From Stentor roeselii (lineage: Eukaryota; Ciliophora; Heterotrichea; Heterotrichida; Stentoridae): 50,679 nt of DNA. Position numbers and translations under genes: made by a program. The notes under the pieces are model-generated. The model saw only the letters and a program-made list of their open reading frames with translations, had not been told where the DNA came from and did no database searches. Location of the stretch: contig RSEH01000313.1 in the NCBI GenBank assembly GCA_006503475.1, positions 1 through 50,679 on the forward strand, in the 5' to 3' direction. This document shows positions 1,644 to 47,900 of the stretch, piece by piece; within the stretch, counting starts at the first letter, position 1; each line of letters begins with the position of its first letter.

Positions 1644-3381
1644 ATGAAATCTAAATCTTATCAAAAACTCGCTTCTTCTAGGAACTCTATTGTTTCTATT
1701 GAGAATCTCAAGTTTAAGTCTGAATGTCAGTCGTCTAGGGGATTGAAACTTCAAGAACTTAGGAAAAGAAAACTTTTAAATGAACCTGAAGTCAATAATC
1801 AAGTAGCTGCAAAAGTCGTTAAGGAGTATCTGCTGCCGATGTTTGAGTCAAAATTCCGCAACAAATCATCAAACGACCGTCAAAAAGTTTACGGTTTCGA
1901 CCACCGAAGAAGTCTGAGCATCGTCCCAGGTACCGTTTACGACGAACTAAAACTTATAGAAAACCTATCCGAAGAAAACAAGCACCTAAGAGCAGTTCTC
2001 GATTCCCTTCACCAAGAAAACCGTGAACTAATGCAAGAAAAAGAGTCAGTCTCGAAAGAACTCCAAAGAAAAAACGAGGAAATATTAAACTTGACGATCA
2101 GTTTAGAGTTAATTTCAGATGAAAACCGTCATCTTGCCCGAACAATCCAGAAACTTCACCAAAAACTTGCCTTTGGACATGACCGCGAGATAAGCAAGCG
2201 AATCCAATCTCAGATAAGCCTTGAAAACATGAAATTCAAGCAAGACCTGCAAGATTTCAAATCAAAAAATGATATCCGACTATTTTTATCTTATTTCTTT
2301 AACTCTTTCACATCAGCTCACTGATCAAATCTACAAACTTGTTCACGAAAACGGTTTTTTAGCTGTTGAAAACGAAATCATGGAAGAAAAAATCAAAGGG
2401 ATTCATTATTTCTTTGAACATTTCTGTGGAAAACTCTCGGTTCAAGAAAAACTCTCAGATGAAGTAAGAATTGTTGTGAAGTCTATTCAAAAATTGGCTG
2501 TTTATGATGAAGAGCTTCATGAAAAACTTGAAGATTCGACTTATAAGCAACAAACAGTTGAAGTCGACTTTTTGAATCTTTCGAAGTTGACTGAAATTAT
2601 TTTGGCTCATAAAGAAAGGGTTCAAAAAACTGCTATTGATAAAATTCGATTTTTACAGAAAGAATTCGCGAGTTCTAAAGAATCTGAGATGAAACTTCAG
2701 GGTAGTTTAGAGGAATGTAAAAAAAGACTACTTGAAACTTCTGAAGAACTTAAAACTCTTAAGATTCGGTCTAGAAAGTCGAAAGTTGTTAAAAGTAGCT
2801 CGGATGAGAAGTTTTGTGCGATATGCTTTCAGGTATTTAATGATATGGAAAATTTCAACTGGAGTTGTAGGACTCATAAAAGTCAGCTCACTGAGGATCG
2901 GTATTGGTGTTGTAATGGGGTGGGAAAAGATGCTCCAGGCTGCATTTTTTCAAAGCACATGACAAACGAAGAGCTATCAGAACAAGTAGAAGACAAGAAA
3001 TACGTCCAGTTCTGTGTAGGATGCAAAACAACAGGCCACCTAATAAAAGACTGTTTTAAAGACCCTAACATTCAATCAGGTCCGACAGTTCTCGAAGAAG
3101 TAGAAAGACTGAAGGTTTTATCCTCAAGTAAGAAAAAGCAGTTAAACCAAGGAGTAGAGCTTCAAGAACGAGCGATTGATTTGTCGAATAGAGCAGTTTC
3201 TGCTTTCGCGTTCAATCGAATCTATGACTCTGAAGACGAAATTGAAGAACTTGAAGGCACTTACTTTAGAGACTTGGTTGATATCAAAGAACTTCTTGAA
3301 ATTCCTAGAAATAAGCAACTTGAGTACCGTAAAAGTATTCATTTCAAGAAAAGAAGGTTTTTAAGTAAACTTTTAGACTAA
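1644..3381 (+). CDS. Coiled-coil protein with CHORD-like and CCHC zinc modules; candidate AT-AC intron
   Basis: Two overlapping open frames, 1644-2324 and 2269-3381, are best joined by removing 2272-2311 (listed separately). This gives exon 1 at 1644-2271, exon 2 at 2312-3381 and 565 residues. The join reads SKND-QLTDQIYKL and keeps the coiled coil unbroken. Residues from about 100 to 370 are heptad-rich coiled coil. A cysteine/histidine cluster begins near residue 376: CAIC, then SCRTH, then WCC, then GC and SKH. Its spacing resembles CHORD-type zinc domains, but I call it CHORD-like only. Near residue 445 a CVGCKTTGHLIKDC segment fits the CX2CX4HX4C zinc knuckle. A second coiled-coil tail follows. 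The function is unknown; a cytoskeletal or RNA-bound scaffold is possible. It sits 14 bases after the previous stop and 15 bases before the eS27 start. Confidence 0.75.
2272..2311 (+). other. Candidate U12-type AT-AC intron, 40 nt
   Basis: Begins ATATCC, matching the first six bases of the minor-spliceosome donor ATATCCTTT, and ends in AC after CTTTCAC. TTTCTTTAAC at 2294-2303 matches the U12 branch consensus TTCCTTAAC, with the putative branch A at 2302, nine bases from the end. Its length of 40 gives exactly the +1 phase needed to join the two reading frames. No GT dinucleotide occurs from 2231 to 2340, so no ordinary GT-AG donor lies where the frames overlap. An insertion or deletion in the A6 run at 2264-2269 is the main alternative. 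Even then, the retained segment would insert hydrophobic residues (DYFYLISLTL) into a coiled coil. Confidence 0.6.
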
Positions 3382-7709: not shown

Positions 7710-10268
7710 ATGGGTAAATGTTTATCAGTGTCTGATTCAAAAAAATCAGGAGATATCTCTCTTCTCTCATCTGTTCCTGAGGTAAAGTCTCATGACGAGT
7801 TTCAAAATTTGCAAATAATAAAAAATTTCCCCGTGAATCCAATCGCTTCTTCTCTAATTCGAAGAGCTTTAACAAAAAACCATTTATTCAACGACCTGTC
7901 CTCTCAAGACATCGAGCGTCTTTTAGCATCAGTGAAATTCTGTGTCTGTGATGACTCAAAGTTCGTTTTTGAGCAAGGAATGCAAGGAACGTTGTTTTTT
8001 ATAATCAACTCAGGGCAGGTGCAAGTGATCGTTGACGGTAAAAAAAAAGGGATCTTGAAACAAGAAGACTGTTTCGGTGAAATGGCTTTACTTTCAGACT
8101 TAGTCCGAAAAGCTTCGATTAAAACTCTTTGTAAGTGTTCCTTTTGGATTCTTTCTCGAATGACTTTTTTCACTGTTTTGCAGGATTTATTTAAAAAGTC
8201 TTTTGATCAGATAAGAAAGTTGATTTCTGGGACTGTTTTCTTTAGAAACTCTCCTGATAGTCAAATTGACTCGATTTCGAAACTGGCTGTTAAGGAATGT
8301 TATAATGATCAGGAAAGAATTGTGAGGGAAGGTGATGAAGGCGACATGCTTTACATTTTAAAGACTGGATGCGTTGTTTTTAAGAAAGGAATTGATGAGT
8401 TTCTTAGAATTACTCATATTGGAGAAATGTTTGGTGAAGGGTCTTTGTTGACTGGTGAGAAGCGACAAGCGACTTGCATGGCGATGGGTTACACTGAAGT
8501 CATATCTATAAATAGACTGAATTTGAAAAGGGTTTTCGGAGATAATTACGATGAGATTATGATGAAGAATGTCGCAAAAAATTCAATTTTAAGTGACCCT
8601 CATCTCGGCTTCTTGGATAAGCCGAAGGTCATCGACATCTGCTGGTCACTTGAGTGGAAAAGGTACTCTGATGACGAGGTAGTCATCCCAAAGAAATACG
8701 AGCAACTTTCAATGTTCATGGTAATCTGTTCAGGCAGCATTAAAACAAAAGAACTCCAGCCTTCAGTTCTTCGCTCATATCAAGTCATAGGTCTCGGCAA
8801 CATAAACGAAAAGTCCTTAAAACGTAAAGATTACTTCTCAGTCGGTCAAAGCATTGTAGGCCAAATTTCAGTTTCTGACATTGACCAGAAGTTAAAAATG
8901 AACACAAAACAAATGTTTGAAAATCTTGACCGCATTCGTTTTATTACAAGTCTTTCATTTTTCCAGGTCCTTTCATTGGAGTCTATAAAAACAGTAGGCC
9001 AGGCACTTAAGGCTTACTTTGTGACGAAAGACACAAAAGTCTTTGAAGTCGGTGATGATAGTAAAAAACTTTACATGGTTCGATCTGGTATTTTTGAGAT
9101 CTATGCAAATAACGGGTCGACTATTCGAATTGTTTTAGCGAATGAAATATTTGGAGAACGTTGTTTATATGATAAAAAAAGAACTGCTTCAGTGATTTGT
9201 GTTGAAGAAGGAGAGGTTTTCGCGATTCATATAAAAACCTTGAAGGATCTGCCTGAATATAAACAGTTGTGTAAAGATGCGAAGAGGAAAGAGTATTACC
9301 AGAAACAGATCACGCTTCAAAGTATGTTAGTTTTGTCTGAACATGTTATTGGATATGGACGGCGGAAGTATTGTATTCAGGACCCGGCGGATAAAAATAA
9401 GTATGACTTGATTATTATTCCGAAAAGCACTCTTGAATGTAAATTAGACTGCTATAAACTTGTCAGTGAAAGGAATATCATGATTCAAGTCGATTATAAA
9501 CATCTTGTTAAAATGGTTTGCTCTTTGGTTGATGAACATAATATTTACTTTATCACTGAACATGTCAAGGGAAAACCATTGAGGAATCTTTTTCCTTTGA
9601 CTCAGGAATTGTCAAAAGTTCTTATTTTGCATTTTGTGAAGATGCTGGAATATCTTCATAATAAAAATATCGTGCATAGGGATTTCTGTGTTGATAATAT
9701 TGTTGTTAGTATCAAGGGAATCCCTCATTTGTTCAACTTTCAGTCAGCGAAAATGGTTGAAAATAGGACTTATAGCAGGGTGGGAAACCCTTATTATAGG
9801 TCACCTGAAATGATCATGGGCAGAGGTTATACGAAAAGTACTGACATCTGGTCCTTAGGGGTTGTCTTGTATGAAATGACTTATGGAGTTCTTCCTTTCA
9901 AGATCTCAACAGGTGAAACTCCAGTAGAAGCCTACGAAAAGATCCTAAACGTAAAACACGGAATCGACCCATCAAAAGGCGAATACGTAAACGAGTTAAT
10001 CCTCGGAATGTTAAGTCCAGCAAACAAAAGATTCGACTTCACAGTAATCCAAAGAAACCTGTGGTTTTCCTCAGTAAACAAAAGAAAGATCTTCCGTCAG
10101 CGAGCCTCTCAAATCGACGACATCTTCCAAAGCGAGTTAAAAGAAAAAAAAACCTTTAAAAAGATATTCAAAGCATCAAGACTAATGACAGTAATAACTA
10201 CTCAGCAACTAAACCCAATTCAAGCACAACCAGAAGTAGAAGAATTCAATTGGGCTAAGCATTTTTAG
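7710..10268 (+). CDS. PKG-like cyclic-nucleotide-binding pseudokinase, N-myristoylated
   Basis: An 852-residue protein built like alveolate cGMP-dependent protein kinase. It begins MGKCLS, an N-myristoylation signal with a palmitoylatable Cys4. Cyclic-nucleotide-binding domains follow, with phosphate-binding cassettes FGEMALL...RKAS (about residue 122), FGEGSLL...RQAT (about 241) and FGERCLY...RTAS (about 480). A degenerate domain lies between the second and the last, as in apicomplexan PKG. The kinase domain covers about 545-790. The catalytic loop reads HRDFCVDN (usual Lys replaced by Cys). The DFG position reads NFQ. The beta-3 Lys aligns with Ile in YDLI. The activation-segment end (SPEM) and DIWSLG helix are kept. 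The fold is therefore preserved but the ATP/Mg residues are lost, so catalysis is unlikely. The role is probably a membrane-bound cyclic-nucleotide sensor or scaffold. It ends four bases from the stop of the convergent PABP gene. Confidence 0.85.
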   Translation: MGKCLSVSDSKKSGDISLLSSVPEVKSHDEFQNLQIIKNFPVNPIASSLIRRALTKNHLFNDLSSQDIERLLASVKFCVCDDSKFVFEQGMQGTLFFIINSGQVQVIVDGKKKGILKQEDCFGEMALLSDLVRKASIKTLCKCSFWILSRMTFFTVLQDLFKKSFDQIRKLISGTVFFRNSPDSQIDSISKLAVKECYNDQERIVREGDEGDMLYILKTGCVVFKKGIDEFLRITHIGEMFGEGSLLTGEKRQATCMAMGYTEVISINRLNLKRVFGDNYDEIMMKNVAKNSILSDPHLGFLDKPKVIDICWSLEWKRYSDDEVVIPKKYEQLSMFMVICSGSIKTKELQPSVLRSYQVIGLGNINEKSLKRKDYFSVGQSIVGQISVSDIDQKLKMNTKQMFENLDRIRFITSLSFFQVLSLESIKTVGQALKAYFVTKDTKVFEVGDDSKKLYMVRSGIFEIYANNGSTIRIVLANEIFGERCLYDKKRTASVICVEEGEVFAIHIKTLKDLPEYKQLCKDAKRKEYYQKQITLQSMLVLSEHVIGYGRRKYCIQDPADKNKYDLIIIPKSTLECKLDCYKLVSERNIMIQVDYKHLVKMVCSLVDEHNIYFITEHVKGKPLRNLFPLTQELSKVLILHFVKMLEYLHNKNIVHRDFCVDNIVVSIKGIPHLFNFQSAKMVENRTYSRVGNPYYRSPEMIMGRGYTKSTDIWSLGVVLYEMTYGVLPFKISTGETPVEAYEKILNVKHGIDPSKGEYVNELILGMLSPANKRFDFTVIQRNLWFSSVNKRKIFRQRASQIDDIFQSELKEKKTFKKIFKASRLMTVITTQQLNPIQAQPEVEEFNWAKHF

Positions 10269-10272
10269 ATAA

Positions 10273-11970
10273 TTAATGATTTTCCAAAAGCACCAGCTGT
10301 TCAGGTTTATCAGCCCAGGCTTTTCTCAGTACTTGAATCGCATTTCTCACCATTTCTTCTAATGACAAAGGGTTTTGCACCAGTCCATTCAAGGTCTCCT
10401 CATCGAGTTCTAAAAGCATTCCAGTCACTTTTCCGACCAGGTCTTTACTTGTCAGTTGAAGTACCTTCGGGTAGAGTTTTTGACCCATTGCTTGTCTTGA
10501 TGAGATTTGATTTAAACATGATGAGACCTCTGAGATTCCTTGCATGATTGGCATTGAAGACATTCCTTGCATGATTGGCATTCCTTCCATTACTGGCATT
10601 CCTGGCACCATCGGCTTCAGACGCCCTTGAAAGATCGGCGGGTTTTTGTTAAATGGTCTGAAAGCGGGATACACTGGAAAAGAATCTGGTTTAAAGTAAG
10701 TCCCTCCTTGGTAAATAGGAAATCGTGGCAAGGGTGAGTAGGGCGTGGGGAAGGGCTTGAAGTAAGAGAATTGAGGGTGATACCTGGTTGAATGGTTTTC
10801 TGAAGATGAAAACATCACCACATGTAATCTCTGGCTTTCAATGCATTTATTACGCAAGCTGCCAAGTGCTTTTCGTGCAGTGAACTGGTCTTTAAAAGTG
10901 ACAACAGCTGAGCCTTTACAAATGGTTTCTTTATAAATTTGTCCCTGGTCTCCATAGCTGATGTTTTCTACTTCTTCCATTTGAATTTGAACAACTGGTC
11001 CGTATTCTTGACAGATTTCTTCAAGTTTCTTTTTATTCATCGATAAATGCAGGTTTCTTATCAATAAAGAGAAATCTAGCCTTTCCCAGTCCTTTTTCAT
11101 GTTTTTTTCAATCTCTGGTGTTTCTTCAACTCGCTGTTGGGGAAGGTTGAATCCATTCATGAAGTTACCAGGTTCAAAGTCATTAAATCCCTTTTTCAAT
11201 TGACCATCTTCACCCTTTTCATTTATTTCTCCAACTTTTAAAGTATCAGCAGTCCACTGAAAACTTCCACATTTGAGACCATTGGTTAAAAGAACTCCAA
11301 TATACACGTCTTCAGCAGAATAACAAGAAACAAATCCAGAGACTTTTCCATACAACTCATCAACTGAAGCCGATTTGACCTTTATAAAGTTTTCAAACAT
11401 TCTCCTTAGCTCCAATTGACTGAACCAAAGGGGAAAGCCTTTCACATACACCCCATTAAAGTCTTTTTCCTCAAGAAACTCTTCAAATTTCACAGCTCTG
11501 ATATTTTTTCCTTGCATTAAAAAGCCATTCATTTGTTTCAAGGCTGCCTCGAAATGACTAAAAGAACTAAATTCAAGAAAACCTTCAGAAAAGTCTTCTT
11601 TTTGATGGAGAAAAAAACTGCAAAGACCTGATAATTTGAACTTTTTTATCAAGGCTTTAATGGATGGCTGCTTGGGCAGGTTCGATATGAAGAGACGACT
11701 TGAAGATGATGGACTTGATTGCTCTAGTTTTGCTTGCCAGGTAAAATTTTCAGTTAGTTTCTGGTTTAGAGATAAAAAAGCTGCCTCTGATGATGATCGG
11801 GTCTTGAACGTCACCCAGGCTTGACTGAAAAATGAACCTGGAACTAGCTTCAGCTTTTGAACTGACCCGAAAGGCTGAAGAGTTTCTAAGAGGCTTGACT
11901 CTGAGATGCTTGGTGAAAGGTTTCCGAGGAAGAGATGAAAGTCTTGGTAAGAATTCAATTGTTGCGCCAT
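10273..11970 (-). CDS. Divergent poly(A)-binding protein (four RRMs plus MLLE)
   Basis: A 565-residue protein with the PABP layout. RRM1 is at about 10-85 (LFLGNLSP), RRM2 at about 90-165 (LFISNLP), RRM3 at about 172-250 (VYVKGFP) and RRM4 at about 300-390 (LLIRNLH). A Pro/Met/Gly-rich linker with short repeats follows. The C-terminal MLLE domain at about 495-560 contains the signature KVTGMLLE. PABP binds poly(A) tails and initiation factors, and MLLE binds PAM2 peptides. The RRMs are poorly conserved: RNP1 in RRM3 reads SGFVSCY, and RRM1 lacks the usual aromatic pair. It may thus be a specialised paralogue rather than the main cytoplasmic PABP. Its stop lies four bases from the stop of the opposite-strand gene, so the 3' ends of the two messages must overlap. 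An 8-base G run (12010-12017) lies 40 bases upstream of the start. Confidence 0.85.
   Translation of the reverse strand: MAQQLNSYQDFHLFLGNLSPSISESSLLETLQPFGSVQKLKLVPGSFFSQAWVTFKTRSSSEAAFLSLNQKLTENFTWQAKLEQSSPSSSSRLFISNLPKQPSIKALIKKFKLSGLCSFFLHQKEDFSEGFLEFSSFSHFEAALKQMNGFLMQGKNIRAVKFEEFLEEKDFNGVYVKGFPLWFSQLELRRMFENFIKVKSASVDELYGKVSGFVSCYSAEDVYIGVLLTNGLKCGSFQWTADTLKVGEINEKGEDGQLKKGFNDFEPGNFMNGFNLPQQRVEETPEIEKNMKKDWERLDFSLLIRNLHLSMNKKKLEEICQEYGPVVQIQMEEVENISYGDQGQIYKETICKGSAVVTFKDQFTARKALGSLRNKCIESQRLHVVMFSSSENHSTRYHPQFSYFKPFPTPYSPLPRFPIYQGGTYFKPDSFPVYPAFRPFNKNPPIFQGRLKPMVPGMPVMEGMPIMQGMSSMPIMQGISEVSSCLNQISSRQAMGQKLYPKVLQLTSKDLVGKVTGMLLELDEETLNGLVQNPLSLEEMVRNAIQVLRKAWADKPEQLVLLENH
10535..10605 (-). 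repeat. Short tandem repeat encoding MP(I/V)MQGM units
   Basis: Near-identical units containing TTGCATGATTGGCATT on the plus strand occur twice about 30 bases apart, with a third diverged copy. They encode the Met/Pro-rich linker before the MLLE domain of the PABP. The copies keep the frame, so slippage would add or remove whole linker units. Confidence 0.7.
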
Positions 11971-35902: not shown

Positions 35903-38900
35903 ATGCAGCCAGGTAATCAAGAGATTGGGCATGTCCAGCCTCATCAAGCGGAAATTCCCAAAATCGAATGGAAAACCGAATTTTCTAAAAACTTCAACCA
36001 AGGAACGATTGAATCTCACAAACTTGACAGACTTACCGATCGTTTAAAAAAAGGCGAATTCACAGGAAAGTTAAAAAATAAGCTTTACTTTAAGATCAAA
36101 CTGAAAATTGACTCACAAGCAGATCTTTTTTATGCAATTGCTGGATTTTTCTCTGATGAAAGTGGTGAAAAAGGCAGTGCGAAGATTATTCTCTGTGGTT
36201 TCTGGAATGATGACGAGAGAAAGAAATACAAAACAGGAATTGATGGAAGAAAACTTTTGAAAGTAAAAAAAAATAGCAGTTATCAGTTTATTGAAACTGG
36301 AAGAATAGTGTCTCCTTCTGTTAGCATCTTCCGAATAGACAACCAGAAAGAAAACTTCAAAATCGGGACTACTCACTTATTTCAGTTAACTGTTTATAAG
36401 ATAATAAAAGACAATCCAAATGAAATATTATGGTTCCTTGAAAATGACTTAACCAATTTGAATCGACCTAAAGACCTTCTCATTAAATTTGTTAAAATTC
36501 TTCAAAAAGGAGCTGAAGGTAAAGGCTTCACGGAAGTAAATCAGATGTTCTTCGATAAGCTTCATCCTTTTAATTATTTTGGAAATGAACGACAGGTGGA
36601 ATTTAAATTTGAAAAATCGTTTATTGAATTTTTTCAAATTAATAAAGGGATTGCTTGGGATATCTTTTATTGGATTTTTGATATCTTTTCTGGTACTTTT
36701 CAATCAAAAGGCCAAAATTTAACTGTTGAGAGAGATTTTCTAGTTTTTAATAGAGAGTTTAAGGAAAAATTGTTATTTTTAGCTCTCGCTGTCAGTGAAA
36801 AGCTGGAATTTAAAAAATCGCTTAGTAGGGAGTGGAAATATTTATTTTTAATCACACAGAATGAGAAAGATATCAGCAAATTAAAATCTTCGAAAGTAAT
36901 TCACAATTTTTTTACTGAGGATAATTTCACAGACATATCAAAATTGGTGTTTATGGAAGATCAGCTTATGTATCAAAATCCCTCAGTTCTAAGGAATGAT
37001 TGGCCTACTTCAAAAATGATTTGTTTTAGAAAAAAATTAGGTGATATTGATGAAATTACTATAACATATGAATTAACTTGTGACTCAGTATTACGAAAAA
37101 AACAAAAAATAAACATTGTAAATGAATTCTACAAAGGATATGTTGTCCCTGGATTTATACTTCAAAAAGCTTTTATCAAGAACAAAGAAATAGAATTAGA
37201 AAGATTTCATGATTATAAAGGATTGATACTTATTCACTTTGAAGGAATTGAAAATTATCTACTAGACTACTTAAATTATTGTCTTAACAAAAAGAAAACT
37301 AAATATATAGAACATTTTTTCTTGTTGTTTAAAGATTTAGTACCTAAAAATACATCGATAATTATTGAAGAAATAATCAGTAAAATTAAAAAAAATCAAA
37401 TTACCCAAAGAGGATCAATTAATATAATAGCATTAATAAAATATATTGATATAAATTTACTTCTCGAAACTAATTTGAAACTTATAATGGAAAAAATTAT
37501 GAATCATTATCAAATGATATTACAATTCAAATCAGAATATATTATTGAAGGACTTGCAAAGCTTTCTTATTGTCTTGTTGTTAAAGAGATAGAAAGTTGC
37601 TCGAAATATATAAACAAATACTTAGCATCTCTAGACTCATCTTCAAAGAAAATATTTTTTAATCACATATCATGTTTTATAATTAAAGAAAAAAAGCCTT
37701 GTATTATGAAAATCGATTCTTTTATCGAAAAATTCGACATCGAAAACAATGAAAAGAGCTTTCATTTAATAGACACTATCTTAACACTAACCAAGGATCC
37801 TAAAATAATAATAGAATATTCTAAAAAGTTTGAAATAAATTTAAGAAAAAATATTTCAGAAGTTTTAACAAATCACTTTCGCAATATTTTAGAAAAATTG
37901 AACTTTATTGACATTTTTCAGGTTCTGATTCAAATAAGCCAGACTGATTCAGCTCTAAAATATTTTGAAATAGAAAAACTTACATCAACTATGACTAAAA
38001 TACTTAAAAGAGCTGAAGAAAACCTTGGGGGTGAAAGTTTTATTAATGAATATATAGACCCACTGTTCTTTTCTCAAAATACTCAACAGATAATTACCCG
38101 TAATAGGAAACTGAATTTCTTTCAATCACTTTTAAATAAAAATTCGATAAAATTTTTAGAATTCATCAGATTTTGTATAAACTTTGAATTCAATCACTAC
38201 CAAAGGAAAACATTTATAAAATTATTTGAAATAGGTTTAGTCAAAGCCACCTCCGTATTAAAAAACGGAGACATTATAAATGAAGTTGATGAAATATTAA
38301 ACCTGCTTGTTTCTAAACCTTTCTTCAAGAATATTTGTTTGAAAACATTTAAAATTTTACTTCCAACAATAAATTTCAGGAATTTATTAATATTCGCTGA
38401 AAGAAAAAAAAATATAGAAGAAATAAAGCTTACTTATAAAGAGTTCATTGAAAATTATATTAAAACTGAAATCTCTACGAATTCGATAACTGATCTTTTA
38501 AAATTCGTGTCTGGGCTCAACCATGATTTAGGAAGATTTGTTGAAAATTTATTAGTAAACCGTGGAGATTTAAAATCAAATGAGCAGCTTCTTGAGGAGT
38601 TAACAGTTACTGGAAGTTTTAATGAATTTCATCACTTTATTTTAATGAATCATCAAAGGTACAGTGATCTAAACGTTTTAGTTAAAATCCTTGATACAAT
38701 AAAACAAATAGATTCAAAATTGAAAGAAAATTCAATAAAAATAAGATCACTTAAACTACTCCAAACAAAAAACCTAGAAGAAAACATCAACAAATACTTT
38801 CAAATCTTTACAATTTGCAGTAAGGATGATTTCAAATTAAGTGGGTCTTTAAGTGAAAAATTAAAAATCGTTCAAGATAAATATGAAAAACTAGATGAAT

Positions 38901-41900
38901 TGAACAATTTATATGATGAAATCAATCAAATCTCTGAAATAAATTCACTTGATGGATTTTTTGATTCTCTGAAGTACTTTAAAAACTATTATTTTTCTAT
39001 ACCCGACCAATCCTTCGAAACTTTCATCAAGCACCCATTTGAAGTAACTTACAATAAAATGAAAATGATAAAAAAAATGTTAAATTCTCCAGAGATATCT
39101 TCAGATATATTCACAGGAATAAATCATGATCTCAGTCCTAAAAATTTCAATAATTTTCTAAGAAAATCTCAATCCATGTATGAAGATCTAGAAACTTCTT
39201 ATAATTTCCTCTCATCTCAAAACAATGATTCTAATGCACATCAAGTCTACAAACATTCAGAGTTCAGAAGCAGAAAACTTGATACTCTTGAAATAATCTT
39301 CCAAAAGAAAATTCCAGAAGAAATAAAAAATCTTATAAAAAACTATAAAAATTTTCTCTTATATATTCCTTCTTGTTTAAAAATTCAACAATGGGTCAAT
39401 GCGCTGAACCCTACAAACTTCTCATCTGAAAGTTTAAAGAAATTCACTGAAATTCAAGAAAGAATTGAAAGTATCAATGTACTTGAATTCAATAGAGACT
39501 TTCATCAGTATTTCCCTCTTGACACATCAAAAATTAAAGAAAATTTTATTTTCTTTGAGTTTTTAGAGACTCTTTCAAAATCAGCTGAAATGATCGAGTA
39601 TCTTAAAAGAGACATTTTTAATAATAAAGGAATTTTCGATGAAATAAAAATGTTCCTCAGGTCAAACTTTACTCCAAAGTTACAACTTTTTAATGTTTTT
39701 TGTATCCAAGAAATGAAAAATAACCTAGTTCAAAAAATCATTAAAAATTCTAGTGAGTCATCCGATTTCTTTGAAGGGCTACGTCAGGAGTTTTTTTCAA
39801 ATGTTGAAGAATGCAAAAGAATGATTTTTTATATGAAACAAACTGAAAACAACTTGAAAGATTTCATTGATATTCAAATGCAAGTAAGTAAAAATGAAGT
39901 CTTTAAAACAAGGCTTATCAACAGCATTATTCAACAAGCACGCCTCGAAATTTTCATTGAAAATCAAGTTTACGTTCTTAAAATTCACTGTGAAAATAAA
40001 CCTCATGACATAAAAGAACTGAATGATTTAAAAAGTAAAGCAGTTTTTGAATCTTCCTATAAAAAAACCAAAGACCAAGAAATTCTTCAAGAAAGTTACA
40101 AAGTTTTTATAAAATCAGTTGAAAACATCATAAAAGTTGAATCTGATTTAAATTCTTTACTTACAATCGGGGTAAACTTTTTAGAAGGGAATAAAAAAGA
40201 ATTTAATTTTCAATCTGGAGATTTTTCTGAACTGGAAAATTTTACCAATGAAGTTAATGAAGTTTTGAATAAATGTGAAATTTATCTGATTCAAGGTATT
40301 TCCAAGTTTCACGATTTGACTTATATCAATGGAAGATTTTATAAATTCATTGATAATTACTTGGTTAACAAAAGTCATGAATCGAAAATTATCCATTTAC
40401 TTAAATTCATGAGAAAGTTTTCTAGGGATGATGAAAGTCTTGAAAATGAAATGAAAAGGTTGGATTTTTTTGAATATGAACTTTCAGATCTAGGCTCTGA
40501 AATTATCGATATTCAGAATTCTCATGAAAATCATGCAGAAAAATTAAGGAAAAAACTTGAGGTTTATTCAAAGTTTTTTGGGAAATTCGAGCGTGAAAAA
40601 GGGTCTGAAGGGTTTTCAAACGATGATAAAAGTTTGATTTACAATTGTTTACATCGTTATATTTTTGATATTTTGATAACTTTTTACTCAAAATACAGTA
40701 ATGGTAATCTTCCTAAACCTCATCAATTTATTCACTGCTGCAAAGAAACTACCTGGCATGATCTTGAACTTTTTTTATATAGAATTTCAACGACAGAATC
40801 TCATGAAATATTTACTTTTATAGAATTAGAAAAGCTTTCTTTTTCCAACCAGTTAAACTTCATAGAGCTGTTCAAAACTATCTTCTCAAAAAACAGCAGT
40901 CACATAAAAATCTTTTTTTTGTCAAGATATGAAGAGTCTTACCCAGAAAATGTCTTAAAAATGACTCTAGGAATAAAATTCAGGTACTTTGAAGATAAAG
41001 AAATTCTTGATCATGATATAATTTTCAATAAAATAAACAAACTTAGAAATACAAAAGTTTTTTGCTCTGATAAGGCAGGAATGGGGAAGACCACATCGAT
41101 AATAAAAAGAGGAAAAGATGGAAAATATCAGAGAAAAGAAATACTTATTGCTGATATTTTTTCAGTTAAATACGTGAAAAGCTTTGTGGATGAAAGTCTG
41201 TTCAATCAGCCGATTCACATTCATTTAAATTTAAATACTGTTAAAAATATTGACTACTTGAATCAATTTTTATATAATCTTACTGTTTTTGGGTACTTTG
41301 AGGAAAATAAATCATTTCTTCATAAAAACACGATAATAAGCATCGAAGTTGAAAGCACTTATGAACATTCATTTGAAAAAAGTTTAAATATCTTGAAATA
41401 CTTGCAAACTGAAAGATTTATTTTCAACCCAGTTAATTTTAAAGAAAATGATTGTAAAGAGGTGAAAGATGTCGGCGAAATGATGAAAAAAATAGATTTC
41501 GAGAATAGTTTCGATAATAGACTACAATACATCCAATTTTTCATCAAAGAGAATAAATTTGAAAATTATCGTCAAATTCATCTATTTTTCCAAATGGTTT
41601 CTTCCACTTTAAACTCTTTTAAAGACACAGAATATTACGATGCACAAAACTACAAAACATTAATAAATGAACTTACCTCCAGTTCTGAATACATTGCAAC
41701 TATTTTTAGGTCAAGTCAAGTGAACCTAATGAGAGCCATAATCAAATCAATTTTAAATATCTACTCAAAAGATCCATCTATTCTAATCAACCAAGAATCT
41801 AGCAAAGAACCTATCAACACTCCTGCAAAATCCTGGAATACTGAGCATCGCCTGTTGATATTTTTCGACAACAATAAAAAAATAAATATTATTTCAAGTA

Positions 41901-44900
41901 ACCCTGAAAAATGCGACGATTACCTGAAAAAGTTGATGGCTTGTTATAAAGAATTCGAAGTTTACAAAGAGAAACTCAATGTGTCTTATTTTTCTTTTTC
42001 AGGGTTCAAAAAGATGTTAAGCTCAAGTTTTAATTACAGAGAAGTTCTTAGAGTATTTGATTCTGATGAATTAAACAACTTCGTCAACCCGAACCTAGAC
42101 TACCACGAGTGTCTCATTAACATGGCAGGAACATCCTCATTAAAACTCTCAGAAATTCCGAATAATTTGAAATATTACAAACTGACTCTTGAAAATTTCA
42201 TGAAAATGATCATTATTCATCTTAAACTTAAAGCACAAACTCCAATTATTCTAATGGGAGAGACTGGATGTGGAAAAACAGCGATAATCAACTACTTCGT
42301 TAAAGTTATCATGCAAGAACCGTTAAAAGTTTTTACAATAAACGCAGGAGTTGATTTGGAGGAAATTAAGTCAATTGTTTTAAAAGTAAGAGAAGAAGCT
42401 AGAGGTCAAATGGGAAAGCGTCTTTGGGTGTTCCTTGATGAGTTCAATACCAGTGAATGTATTCATTTTATTTCTCAGTTAATATGTGAGAATAAGTTCA
42501 ATAATCAAGAACTTGAAAAGAACATCGTATGGGTGGGTGCTTGTAATCCTTATAAAAAAATTAAAGACCTCGGACAGAGCTGTGGATTAAAAAAATCACT
42601 TGATGGGACAAAACTTGTACACATGGTTCAGAAGATCCCTCATCGGGTAATTGAGTATGTTTGGGACTTTGGAAGTATTACCTCTGAGATTCTTAAGAAT
42701 TACTTGGAAAAAATGCTTGATAGAATTTTTATAGAAGTCAAAAAAGTAAACAAGAAAATCATTGAAGAAGACAAAAAAAATAATTTAGAAGAAAAGAAAA
42801 AAAATCAAGAAGAAAAGAAAAATAATCAAGAAGAAAAGAAAAATAATCTAGAAGAAAAGAAAAATAATCTAGAAGAAAAGAAAAATAATCTAGAAGACAA
42901 TGAACTTAATGAAGAAGATAAAAAACTCAAAGTTCAAACTATTCAAGCTATTCTTACTGCTCATGAATATTTTCAAAGTCATCTTGGAAATCATAGTGTT
43001 AGTTTAAGGGATGTTTCAAGGTTTATTGATTTGGCTATTTGGTTTTATTACTTCACTGGGAATCAGTTTATTGAAAAAATTAGACTCAGAGAAAGTATTA
43101 TTCTTTCTATTGTTCATTGCTATTATTTGAGGATTTCTGAAAATGATCAAAGGGTCAATTTTTTAAATCAAATCGAAAATGCGATGAAAATTGCGAAAGG
43201 AAAAGTTATGGAATGCTTGAAAATTGCTCAAGATTACTTTTTTAGAGAACTTGATGTTGGGAATGATATTGCGAAAAATGAGGCTTTTATTGAAAATATT
43301 TATGCTTTGATTCCTTGTGTTTGTAATCAAATACCGATTTTTATATGTGGGAAGCCAGGTTCAAGCAAAACCTTATCAACCCAGTTTTTATTCAAAAAGA
43401 TGAAAGGAGAAAACTCAAACTCAGAACTATTTAAAAAAATGCCAGAAATAAAAGAATTCGCATTTCAAGGAAGTAAATCCTGCACATCAGAAGGTATAAA
43501 AAACGTATTCGAACTAGCTATAAAACAAGCAGAACAATATCAACACGACAAACAAAATATCTTACCAGTGATCGTCTTCGACGAAATCGGCCTAGCAGAA
43601 GATTCCCCAAGCAACCCATTGAAAGTGCTTCACAAGTACCTCGAGCACGAGCAAAAAACAATTGGATTCATCGGCCTGTCAAATTGGGAACTTGACGCTT
43701 CTAAAATGAACAGAACTCTTATCCTTGGCAGGGCAGAGCCAAAAATAAGCGACTTGAAAAAGACCTGTCTTGCAATTGCTTCAAATTACAGCATTTCAGA
43801 TGATCATAAAGCTCTTATAGTAAAATCTGTTGAAGCTTATTCAGAATTAAGAAACCAGTTTGAAAAGTGTTACCCGCAACATGTTAATTTTTATGGTCAT
43901 CGTGATTTTTATAATATTATAGGAAAAATTTGTAGTGATTTCAAACAGGTTCAAGATTGGAGCAATGAAAATGAAGGGAATATTATTGTTAATGCTTTTG
44001 CTAGGAATATGGGAGGACTTGATGATTCTCTTTCTAGGATAAAGACTGTTTTAGATAAGATGATGAATATTTATTGTTTGAAGCTGGACCCTTTGGAACT
44101 GATTAAAGAAAATCTGGGATTCGTTGGAAAAAAAAATGAGGTGAATGAAGCTATTCTAAAGGAAAACATTGAAAAAAATCTTAAACCAAGTTACGAGCCA
44201 AGATATTTGATGATCATCGGAAAAAAAGAAGAAATTTTCTACCTTATCAACAATAAACACGTTTCCTGTCAAAACGAAACAATTAAAATATTCGGCAGTT
44301 GTTTTGAAGATGACTGTTATTCACAAGATTCAGTAATTGATTCAATTTCAGATGTAATTCGATATATCGAAAAAGATGTTACATTAATTTTCATTGACAA
44401 TGAATCGATTTACCCAGCACTTTACGATCTTTTCAATCAAAACTTCACAATTAAAGATAAAACCAGGACTTGTAAAATAACTGTCGGGTCTGACTGCAAC
44501 CCGAACTGTGAAGTCAACTCAAGATTTCGATGTGTTGTCGTCGTTGAGGATATCGAAGAAAACTTCAACGATGAAAAAGCTCCTTTTTTAAATAGGTTCG
44601 AAAAACAGAAAATTTCAGTCAAGAACCTTTTAACTTCAGAACAAAAAAATAAAGTCTATGTTTTGCAATCTTGGATAAATTCATTCTTTTTAACAGCGAC
44701 AGTAAAAACTGACTTTGATAGAAAGTCTGTCTTTCCATTGTTATCAGAATCTTTACTTGAATTATTCGTTTTGATGTCTTCTGAGGAAGAACTTGAGAAA
44801 AATTTCAAAAATTTGTTTATCAGGTCTGCTTCAAATGACTTGCCTTTTCTTTTAAGGAATTCGAGAATGGATGAAAATGAAAAAGAAAAAATTTTGAATC

Positions 44901-47900
44901 AATGGAAAGAAAATCATAAAACTTGTTTTGTTGATGATGTTAAGAGAATATCTGAAGGTTTTAATTATAAGATGTTGGCACTTACTTATGATTCTGATCG
45001 TGTGCCGGGTTTTGAGTTTAGTGATTATTTTAGGATTAGTGATATCAAAACTGAAAAAGAAATGAAGAAGTTGATTGAAAAATTTAGGAAGTCGGAGAAG
45101 TTAATTTTGATTGTTGATGTTAATAATAGGGTGGAAGGAAAACATTTGTATCATCTTATTTCAGTTATTGATTCTGAATTGGTGGAAGGGTCTATTAAGA
45201 ATTATGTGATTTTAGTTAGAATGCAAAGAAATGATAAGCAAAGGAAATTTATTATTAGTGAGACTTCGTGGGATGTGAAGATGTATGAAAAGATAGAAAA
45301 TTCGCCTATTTATATTTTGGATTATCTAGATTACTCTGTTCAATCCTTAGTTCTCAATTCAAATTTTGTTAATTTATCCAGTGAAATCGGTTTTTTTATT
45401 GAAGAAACTGTACTTTCAATAATTTATCCAGCAGAAGTTGACTCCTCAAAACCTTCTGATCGCAAGTCACTTATAATTAAGTCATTTATTAGTGAAGAAA
45501 GCAAAAATCTTCAAGAAGACTTCATAAAAAAGGTCCAAGTTCTGATAAACAAAAGAGATAACTTAAAAAATGAATCTGATAAGATAAAAAATAAGATATT
45601 CCAATGTCCAGATGTCCAAAAACATGCAATAAACCTTGAAAACTCGCTAAAAATCTTAGCAAAAAATGAACTTTTAGAGACAATAAAACTTTTACTTATA
45701 TACTTTGAAGAAAAATACTTAATGACTCCTTACATAGAATCATTTTCAAAAAACGATTTAGAATTTAGAGAATTTTTCAATCACCTTATAGAAAAAATAA
45801 ATATCGAAGAAACTCCTAAAAATTCTATTGAAATTATTTATAATCTTACAATTCCATTATCCAGAGAAATTTACACAATTTGCATAGATACAATTAAAAA
45901 TTCTTCTCATGAATCTCGAAAAATATGCAAATTTAAAATTGAAGAAAAGCTTAACAAACGTATAGAAGAACCCTTCTTTAACATATTCAAGTCTCCAAAA
46001 AATACCAAACTACTTTTTTATGATTTTGTGAAGATCATCTTGCATGAAAATTCTTTATTTTATCAAGAATCGTCAGTAATAAATTCAATTTTAGAAACTA
46101 TTTACAGTGAAGATATTATTGAGAATATCATTTTGATTGATAAAAAAAAAAGTACAATAGTTTCTCTTTTTGGACTTTACCTTGAGCTGACAAGATATAA
46201 ATTCGAAACGATAATAAAAAAGGTATTCGAAGAAGATATGAATCTTAGAGGAAATGTATTTAATAAAGATAATATAAATAAAATTTGGAAAATAAAGGTT
46301 AAGCAGCTTCTTGAAACACTTACCTTGAATGTATTTCCTGATGATATTTTCAGTGCTCATAAAAATCTAAGAGTTGAAGATTACAAAAAACTTTTGCAGA
46401 TAATTTTTGATGTTTCATGCACGATAGAAAATAATGAAAATGTTGAAAATGATGAAGATAGTGGAAATAATGAAGATAGTGAAAATAATGAAGAATATGA
46501 ATTACCTTCTATAGAATGCTTATTATATTGGAAGAATGTTTCTGGTATTATAAATATGGAAAATTTCACATCAATTTCAAAAAATCCTGATTTTGATATG
46601 AAAAAAGTTTTACAGAGAATGTGTATTAGTCCTCGAACTCTTGATTGTATAAAAAATGAAGATTTTAGAGTAAATCAAGAAAAAATCATAAGCGATATAT
46701 CTTCAGATTTAATTAGAAATCAACTTTTCCTCCTAAATGCTGAATATTTGATCACTTCTGATTATACTCTTATTAATAAAGTTGCAGATATTCTCAATGG
46801 TAACCCTAAATCATTCGTTTTAGAAAATTGCACTAATCTAATCAAAAAGATAATAAAAGAATCAAATATCAGTTCAATACTTGAAATAAATGACTTCAAT
46901 CCTAAACTCATTTTTAGATCTGAAAATTGCAATGAAAACAAAATTATTGAAATTCTCGAAAATTGCTTAAATTTTTCATCAACTTTCACAACTTTAATCT
47001 TTGATAAGATTCTAAATTTCCTAAAAGATCCCCAAATAGATTCCCCAGAATATTATATGAGTGAAAACGTTCAAATTGACCAAAAGAAACTAGAGAAAAG
47101 GTTAAATTTTTATTTGGAGATAATATCCAAAGTCAATATCTTAGAATTCCCGAAATTGAATAAACTTGTTTCTTTAGCAAAGTTTCGAGATTTGTTGATT
47201 ATTTATTGCCAAAACTTCTGCGATTTATTACCAAAATCTAATCATGAAATAGATGAATTAATTAAGAAAAAAGTGTTATCAAATGGGTCTTATGGAAATA
47301 TTGCAAGAAATTTTATTTTAAAGTACTTGAAATTTAATAGCAATAAAATATATTTGAAAAAATTTATCAAAAATACCTTAAATGATGATAATTTGATTGA
47401 AGAACTTAGAATATATAAACAATTTAACAAAAAACTTGAAGAATGTCCTTACGAGACTGAAAGTGATTCTCAACTTGAAAGTAGGAATGTCTTCGAAATA
47501 TTCATAGGAATCAACAAACTTCTCAAAGATTTTCATCAATCTAAGTTAAGAAATTTCGAAATAAGCACTTCAATAGAAGAAATAATCAAATACCTTATTC
47601 AACAAAAAGACTTTTTCTCTGAAGAAACCCCAAAAATCAAATTTTATCTGAATATGACCTTAGTTTATCTTGTTGCATGTAAAAAATATAAAAAAAATAT
47701 AAATGATTTCCGTATTCAAGAATCTAAAGAACCTTTAATGATCCTTAAAAACATTCAAGAAATAATCAGATCTCGCAAATCTTTCTCAAATAATTCAAAC
47801 CTTGAATATTACTACTTTAAATTTGAAGAAAATTTCAAAGGATGTAACCTTTCACTTATTCAAAACACGATAATCCACGAATATCTGAATTGCATAGAAA

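Follow-up and report, generated by a model that had tools for sequence, protein, structure and literature searches.

Putative U12-type AT-AC introns and matching minor-spliceosome candidates in a heterotrich-like ciliate

Introduction

Two open reading frames, 1644-2324 and 2269-3381, overlap one base out of register in a 50,679-nt stretch of DNA (hereafter the window, contig C245 in an assembly that comprises 522 contigs and 44.4 Mb), and the question raised by this locus is what joins them. Excision of the 40 nt at 2272-2311, ATATCCGACTATTTTTATCTTATTTCTTTAACTCTTTCAC, fuses both frames into a single one of 565 residues. A first-pass annotation had described this segment as having an ATATCC donor, a branch element and an AC end, and had proposed that it is removed in phase by a U12 spliceosome; the letters are as described, with a branch-like A at 2302 nine nt from the end, and the in-phase fusion holds. 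Here, we describe the gene and its relatives, the small RNAs and the protein that could serve such an intron, and the alternatives, and argue that 2272-2311 is very probably a minor (U12-type) intron of the AT-AC class, in a heterotrich-like ciliate, a reading in which splicing is deduced from the anatomy of the segment and its match to snRNA candidates.

U12-type AT-AC introns have a ATATCCTT donor and a TCCTTAAC branch element, with a branch-to-acceptor distance of 10-15 in animals and plants (passages of PMC3488318). The relevant passages of published surveys report U11 and U12 as completely absent among the ciliates considered and minor or AT-AC introns as absent in ciliates (PMC12862383), no evidence of minor introns in Alveolata (PMC10639083) and absence of the minor system in Amoebophrya (PMC7789003). 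For Stentor coeruleus, passages of PMC9505925 list U11, U12, U4atac and U6atac as all not found and remark that U12-type introns had not been reported. For two further ciliates ‘all snRNAs’ were reported after a search that included minor models, and the passages concerned name no minor ones (PMC10946202). Our own text search of the literature, which covered titles, abstract openings and passages and few subscription papers, recognised no report of a ciliate minor spliceosome.

The intron-like segment recurs at one codon of a gene family

The features discussed below are collected in Table 1. Taken alone, the motifs of the segment are at chance level in the window: ATATCC occurs 18 times (18.15 expected) and TTCTTTAAC twice (2.16 expected). 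The intron call rises above chance through repetition: the structure is present at one shared codon in 14 of the 23 family loci, and two unrelated genes have it as well.

Table 1. Coordinates of the window gene, the two further intron-bearing genes and the candidate small RNA genes.
Feature	Position	Strand	Description
Exon 1, coiled-coil gene	window 1644..2271	+	ATG at 1644 is the assumed start; ends in AAT G before the junction; open frame 1644-2324
Putative U12-type AT-AC intron, 40 nt, phase 1	window 2272..2311	+	same-codon structure in 14/23 family loci, missing in 5
Donor ATATCCGA	window 2272..2279	+	CCGA predicted to pair with the U11 5' end, UCCG with U6atac (duplex computation)
Branch element TTCTTTAAC	window 2295..2303	+	likely branch A at 2302; predicted to pair with the U12 candidate, computed without shuffle control
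Acceptor AC	window 2310..2311	+	9 nt past branch A; the sole tested acceptor that keeps the window gene's frame open
Exon 2	window 2312..3381	+	coiled coil, then a Cys/His-rich C-terminal part; stop TAA
L081	contig C385		37-nt AT-AA segment; coiled-coil-like gene unrelated to the family
L052	contig C329		40-nt AT-AA segment with branch element TTCCTTAAC; UTP23-like gene
U6atac	C206:178445-178552	+	Rfam model, over cut-off
U12 candidate	C513:33061-33189	-	Rfam model, below cut-off
U11 candidate	C391:24585-24697	-	Rfam model, below cut-off

With most of exon 2 as query, 23 matching loci were found in the assembly, the window included, and all were examined. The 13 intron-bearing loci other than the window have 27-35% identity to its exon 2, and all 14 carry a 37-40 nt segment starting with ATATCCGA (two of 37 nt, six of 38 nt, three of 39 nt and three of 40 nt; seven ending in AC, seven in AA). 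The family search imposed [AG]TATCC alone, leaving the following GA free, and GA nevertheless follows ATATCC in 14/14. A TTAAC branch element, whose presence was required when the family introns were delimited, places a branch-like A 7-9 nt from the end. Five loci lack the segment: read-through is clear in L005 and L007 (E 3e-20 for L007) and more weakly supported in L027 (E 9e-8), L031 (E 3e-5) and L030 (E 0.002), and the remaining four (L029, L033, L034 and L035) were assigned to neither group.

These relatives bear directly on whether there is an intron at all. The window frames could likewise be joined by a one-base skip near the A6 run, either through programmed +1 frameshifting or as an indel introduced by sequencing or assembly, the latter a weakness that the first-pass annotation had itself flagged; however, in 14 diverged loci that codon holds segments of 37, 38, 39 or 40 nt, which would need different frame changes or none, five paralogues do without the segment, and the donor and branch letters are retained despite the divergence of the proteins, so that we give this explanation almost no weight. 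Equally slight is the chance that the family consists of pseudogenes whose frame breaks are decay: nothing beyond the break between the frames speaks for it, whereas long open frames lie on both sides (upstream 129-287 and downstream 135-381 codons in 15 loci), the break is identical in 14 loci and a similar one is found in a UTP23-like gene.

Protein alignments locate the junction of the putative intron. Exon 1 aligns with intron-less relatives up to an Asp at the junction; this residue is invariant in 9/9 alignment rows, and the spliced window protein shows no gap there against L005, Blepharisma stoltei P0010 and six other relatives. The family tree has long branches (over its 25 rows, end branches have a median of 0.69 changes per site), so that the donor and branch letters have persisted through extensive divergence. 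Half of the inner branches of this tree (11/22) are open and intron presence costs three changes; a single origin of the family intron is possible.

Conservation may extend to other species. The metagenomic relative P0032 (53% identity) and the relative P0031 (74%) start with MISDCFFRVFLNFSHKL and MKSLTLSNQL, respectively, the output expected of a gene caller that reads through ATATCCGAY... and ...CTTTAACTCT... into exon 2. Such starts are seen in two of the five relatives nearest to the window protein (P0031-P0035), the other three beginning past the junction, and they suggest that the intron is conserved in the sources of P0031 and P0032.

As for the host, the sole named relative of the spliced window protein is from Moneuplotes crassus, another ciliate, and the nearest named relative of L005 is from Blepharisma stoltei (52%). 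The first-pass statement that the other introns are 15-nt GT-AG ones was checked on relatives outside the window, and such an intron is present in 6/10 family loci examined. We infer a heterotrich-like host from these 15-nt introns and from the proximity of L005 to B. stoltei.

Ciliates delete DNA between and inside genes, and the segment might accordingly be thought a short internal eliminated sequence, kept in germline or incompletely processed copies and removed from DNA and not from RNA. It starts with AT, and the next exon has A as its first base in 13/15 cases and then T in 11/15, so that a two-base direct repeat often flanks it. The same exon AT is given equally by the conserved Asp codon, though, the segment is kept in 14/14 loci of the assembly, and its inner TTAAC and its donor match the genome's own snRNA candidates; we consider DNA-level removal very improbable, if a shade less so than an indel or decay.

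Frame test and genetic code

Read with the standard code, all 16 introns of the U12 type considered here (14 in the family, one each in L081 and L052) behave alike: if the intron is retained, a stop follows within 3-50 codons (16/16), and if it is removed, 105-381 codons stay open downstream (16/16). If TGA is taken as a sense codon, retention still breaks the frame within 3-91 codons in 13/16; the three 39-nt introns (L004, L022 and L026) then read through with 13 extra residues, and the first frame of the window extends 91 codons beyond the donor.

The frame argument is thus cleanest if TGA is a stop. That it plainly is one was not borne out, since the 15 window frames examined end in TAA (11) or TAG (4) and never in TGA. 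Spliced frames hold no in-frame TGA before their TAA or TAG (0/16), each of the three 39-nt introns holds one, and TGG accounts for 112 of 14,446 window codons (0.78%); together these observations fit TGA not being an ordinary Trp codon, which falls short of proving a stop role. TGA may be a seldom-used stop, or it may encode an amino acid; it is a sense codon in Blepharisma, and the same might hold here.

This doubt modifies one statement of the first-pass annotation. GT is indeed absent from 2231-2340, and the corollary that no normal intron can start where the frames overlap no longer follows if TGA is sense, as the overlap then passes 2340. The junction is placed at the same point even so, because the ungapped protein alignment still locates it, and our confidence in the intron is left nearly unchanged because the alignments are independent of the code. 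More than one acceptor keeps the frame in 9/16 introns (in 8/15 of the 14 family introns plus that of L081, and in L052); ambiguous acceptors were chosen by branch distance and protein alignment.

Introns of this type in other genes

The genome was also searched with two narrow patterns that imposed ATATCC or TATCCG. The first gave 22 matches, 13 in the family and nine elsewhere (reversed control, three), and the second 25, of which 12 were in the family; its 13 others show no excess over the reversed control (14). Because the second search did no better outside the family than its control did, introns that match this exact form appear to be few. Frame testing of the 21 distinct non-family places kept two, L081 and L052. 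Among the remaining 19, 13 have an open frame of at least 100 codons running across the segment on one of the strands, and L053, L054, L065, L067, L071 and L076 are without one; L081 and L052 also have a spanning frame, so that this property alone is not decisive.

In L052, removal of 37 or 43 nt also keeps the frame. The 40-nt product aligns with UTP23 (4mj7_A) at 84.0 bits, with the junction ungapped and a three-residue gap a few residues later, and with an FCF1 homologue (7mq8_SL) at 50.6 bits, crossing the junction without a gap; it contains a Pfam Fcf1 domain. Its branch element is the reference sequence for U12-type introns, with which TTCTTTAAC of the window agrees in 8/9 letters.

In all, at least 16 such introns are recognised, in three kinds of gene but mostly in one expanded coiled-coil family, so that the first-pass expectation of further introns of this type is borne out by 15 besides the window's own. 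The donor ATATCC, imposed by the searches, is common to all 16, and the branch A lies 6-9 nt from the intron end.

Small RNA candidates and their pairing with the introns

Using Rfam models, U6atac was found over its cut-off (37.7 bits; cut-off 33), a U12 candidate below it (36.4 bits; cut-off 53; E 2e-4) and a U11 candidate just below it (38.3 bits; cut-off 39; E 1e-4 to 3.5e-4). The major U6 gene scores 97.1 bits. The same searches in 14 prokaryote genomes, run as a control, gave matches in three (U12), eight (U6atac) and one (U11), all of them short of the cut-off. The U12 candidate retains the branch-binding stretch AUGAGUAAGGAAAAUA and an AUUUUUG site. Upstream of U6atac, U12, U11 and U6 (L010, L009, L020 and L013) lies TCCCATAT, its CCCATAT starting 52, 53, 56 and 59 nt before the RNA, respectively; elsewhere it occurs seven times in 257,525 bases on both strands (other loci examined, some overlapping). 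It is likely a common snRNA promoter element, and its sharing places the snRNA genes in a single genome and speaks against contamination.

The search for U4atac was negative. At E 1 the Rfam model matched nothing (of 2067 first-look candidates, 48 were scored), and CGTCCATAN{30,60}AGCTAAA matched twice against nine times in the reversed control. The pattern AGCTAAAN{22,52}AWTTTTTG gave 56 matches against 146 in the control, none U4atac-like among the 12 inspected. The promoter-based CCCATATN{92,122}GCTRAN{25,55}TTTTTG, a weak pattern that missed the U4 positive control, gave four against two, none of the four U4atac-like on inspection. Rfam found no snRNA in any of seven pattern-derived loci (L058, L059, L093 and L097-L100). 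In one of these, L097 (G000:C179:69500-69760), which has no Rfam match, a TCCCATATT element precedes what may be a small-RNA-like stretch, containing GGCTAAAG and TTTTTG.

The donor of the window, ATATCCGA, differs from the classical ATATCCTT, and the family donor, ATATCCGATT, reads CCGATT instead of CCTTTT; GA stands at +7/+8 in all 16 introns and the classical TT in none. The small RNAs appear to have changed with it. The U11 candidate has the 5' end CAAUCGG (Rfam consensus AAAAAGG), with which the family donor would form six contiguous pairs as against two with a human-type U11 end; the probability of four free positions pairing by chance is 0.006. The donor of the window itself, ATATCCGAC, gives a shorter U11 duplex (-5.7 versus -7.7 kcal/mol for the family donor). 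U6atac has CGGAG here (consensus AAGGAG), which pairs with UCCG. As judged from the letters, GA at +7/+8 is thus compensated by AAUCGG in the putative U11 and CGGA in U6atac: pairing would be kept and the letters changed. Pairing of the U12 candidate with the branch elements is computed at -5.9 to -9.1 kcal/mol without a shuffle control, and helix I between U12 and U6atac is not above shuffles, 91% of which are equal or better.

Could another machine remove the segment, either the major (U2) spliceosome or a hybrid in which, for example, U4 is borrowed in place of U4atac? The failure of the Rfam model and the three patterns to find U4atac and the scores of the U11 and U12 candidates below their cut-offs would agree with this. 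However, ATATCCGA fits the U11 and U6atac found here and misfits a U1 end such as that described for Stentor (ACUUACCU; passages of PMC9505925), taken as a stand-in for the U1 of this genome, and the same genes have major introns of the 15-nt GT-AG kind. We regard such removal as improbable, though it is the least improbable of the alternatives, and retain the U12-type reading.

A U11-35K-like protein

The minor and major machineries also seem to be represented by separate protein genes. L101 is U1-70K (60.8% to human 70K, 49.5% to 35K). L102 has as its best solved match 8r7n_C (U11/U12-35K) at 90.8 bits, with the best U1-70K chain at 78.5 bits, and in another comparison it scores 91.7 bits against 35K and 74.3 against U1-70K; by these scores, it is a U11-35K-like protein encoded by a gene separate from U1-70K. 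The L102 gene carries a 15-nt GT-AG intron. The search for minor-spliceosome components that the first-pass annotation had called for thus has a mixed outcome: U6atac over cut-off, U12 and U11 candidates and a U11-35K-like protein are there, and U4atac was not found. Its U12-type interpretation is supported, strengthened by the relatives and slightly corrected.

Proposed mechanism and comparison with known systems

Taking the order of steps from the known minor spliceosome, and RNA production and splicing as inferred, the U11 snRNA (5' end CAAUCGG) would recognise the donor CCGAUU, and the U12 snRNA (GUAAGGAA) the branch element UUCUUUAAC. U6atac (CGGAGAGA) would then replace U11 at the donor, and the branch A, 6-9 nt before the AC or AA end, would attack the donor. 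The small set of minor introns would coexist with a major system that removes 15-nt GT-AG introns.

With classical U12-type AT-AC introns, those described here share the AT start, ATATCC, a TTAAC-type branch element near the end, matching U11, U12 and U6atac candidates and, in 7/16, the AC end. They differ in having GA for TT at +7/+8 with matching changes in U11 and U6atac, AA ends in 9/16, lengths of 37-40 nt, a ciliate host and a branch 6-9 nt from the end, shorter than 10-15. Blastocystis also has short, AT-AC-rich minor introns in a unicellular eukaryote: passages of PMC5608401 report 346 of them, with all four snRNAs and seven proteins, as against 16 introns, three snRNAs and one protein here (35K being the only minor-specific protein sought). 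As the median length of its minor introns is given as 39 bp (passage of PMC10639083), a length near 39 nt is not new, and the first-pass description of the intron as unusually short does not stand, in contrast to its U12-type assignment. The 15-nt GT-AG major introns resemble those of S. coeruleus, and the U12-type introns, U6atac and U11/U12 candidates set this genome apart from what the passages of that study report (PMC9505925).

It is likely, if a little less so than the identity of the window intron, that a functional minor spliceosome persisted in a ciliate lineage, and hence in the alveolates, to serve perhaps no more than some tens of introns, most of them within a single expanded family, and that its donor code moved from CCTT to CCGA(T) with co-evolved U11 and U6atac, beside 15-nt major introns. 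If this is true, loss of the minor spliceosome in the supergroup Alveolata is incomplete, contrary to the surveys, and a single cell runs two spliceosomes, one for introns of 15 nt and one for introns of about 38 nt. The smallest number of minor introns that can sustain a second spliceosome would then become testable, as names can be put to the introns, snRNAs and protein. With donor, U11 and U6atac changed in a matching way, the system would be a natural experiment in splice-site recognition, and TCCCATAT could help to locate further small RNA genes of this genome.

Other genes of the window

Three further features of the window were noted. A protein kinase with cyclic-nucleotide-binding domains is encoded in three stretches at 7710-10268 (+). 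It is followed at 10273-11970 (-) by a gene whose product combines a single RRM with an MLLE domain at its C terminus, resembling a poly(A)-binding protein in shortened form. A single open frame of 4540 codons occupies 35903-49525 (+), in the A+T-rich end of the window.
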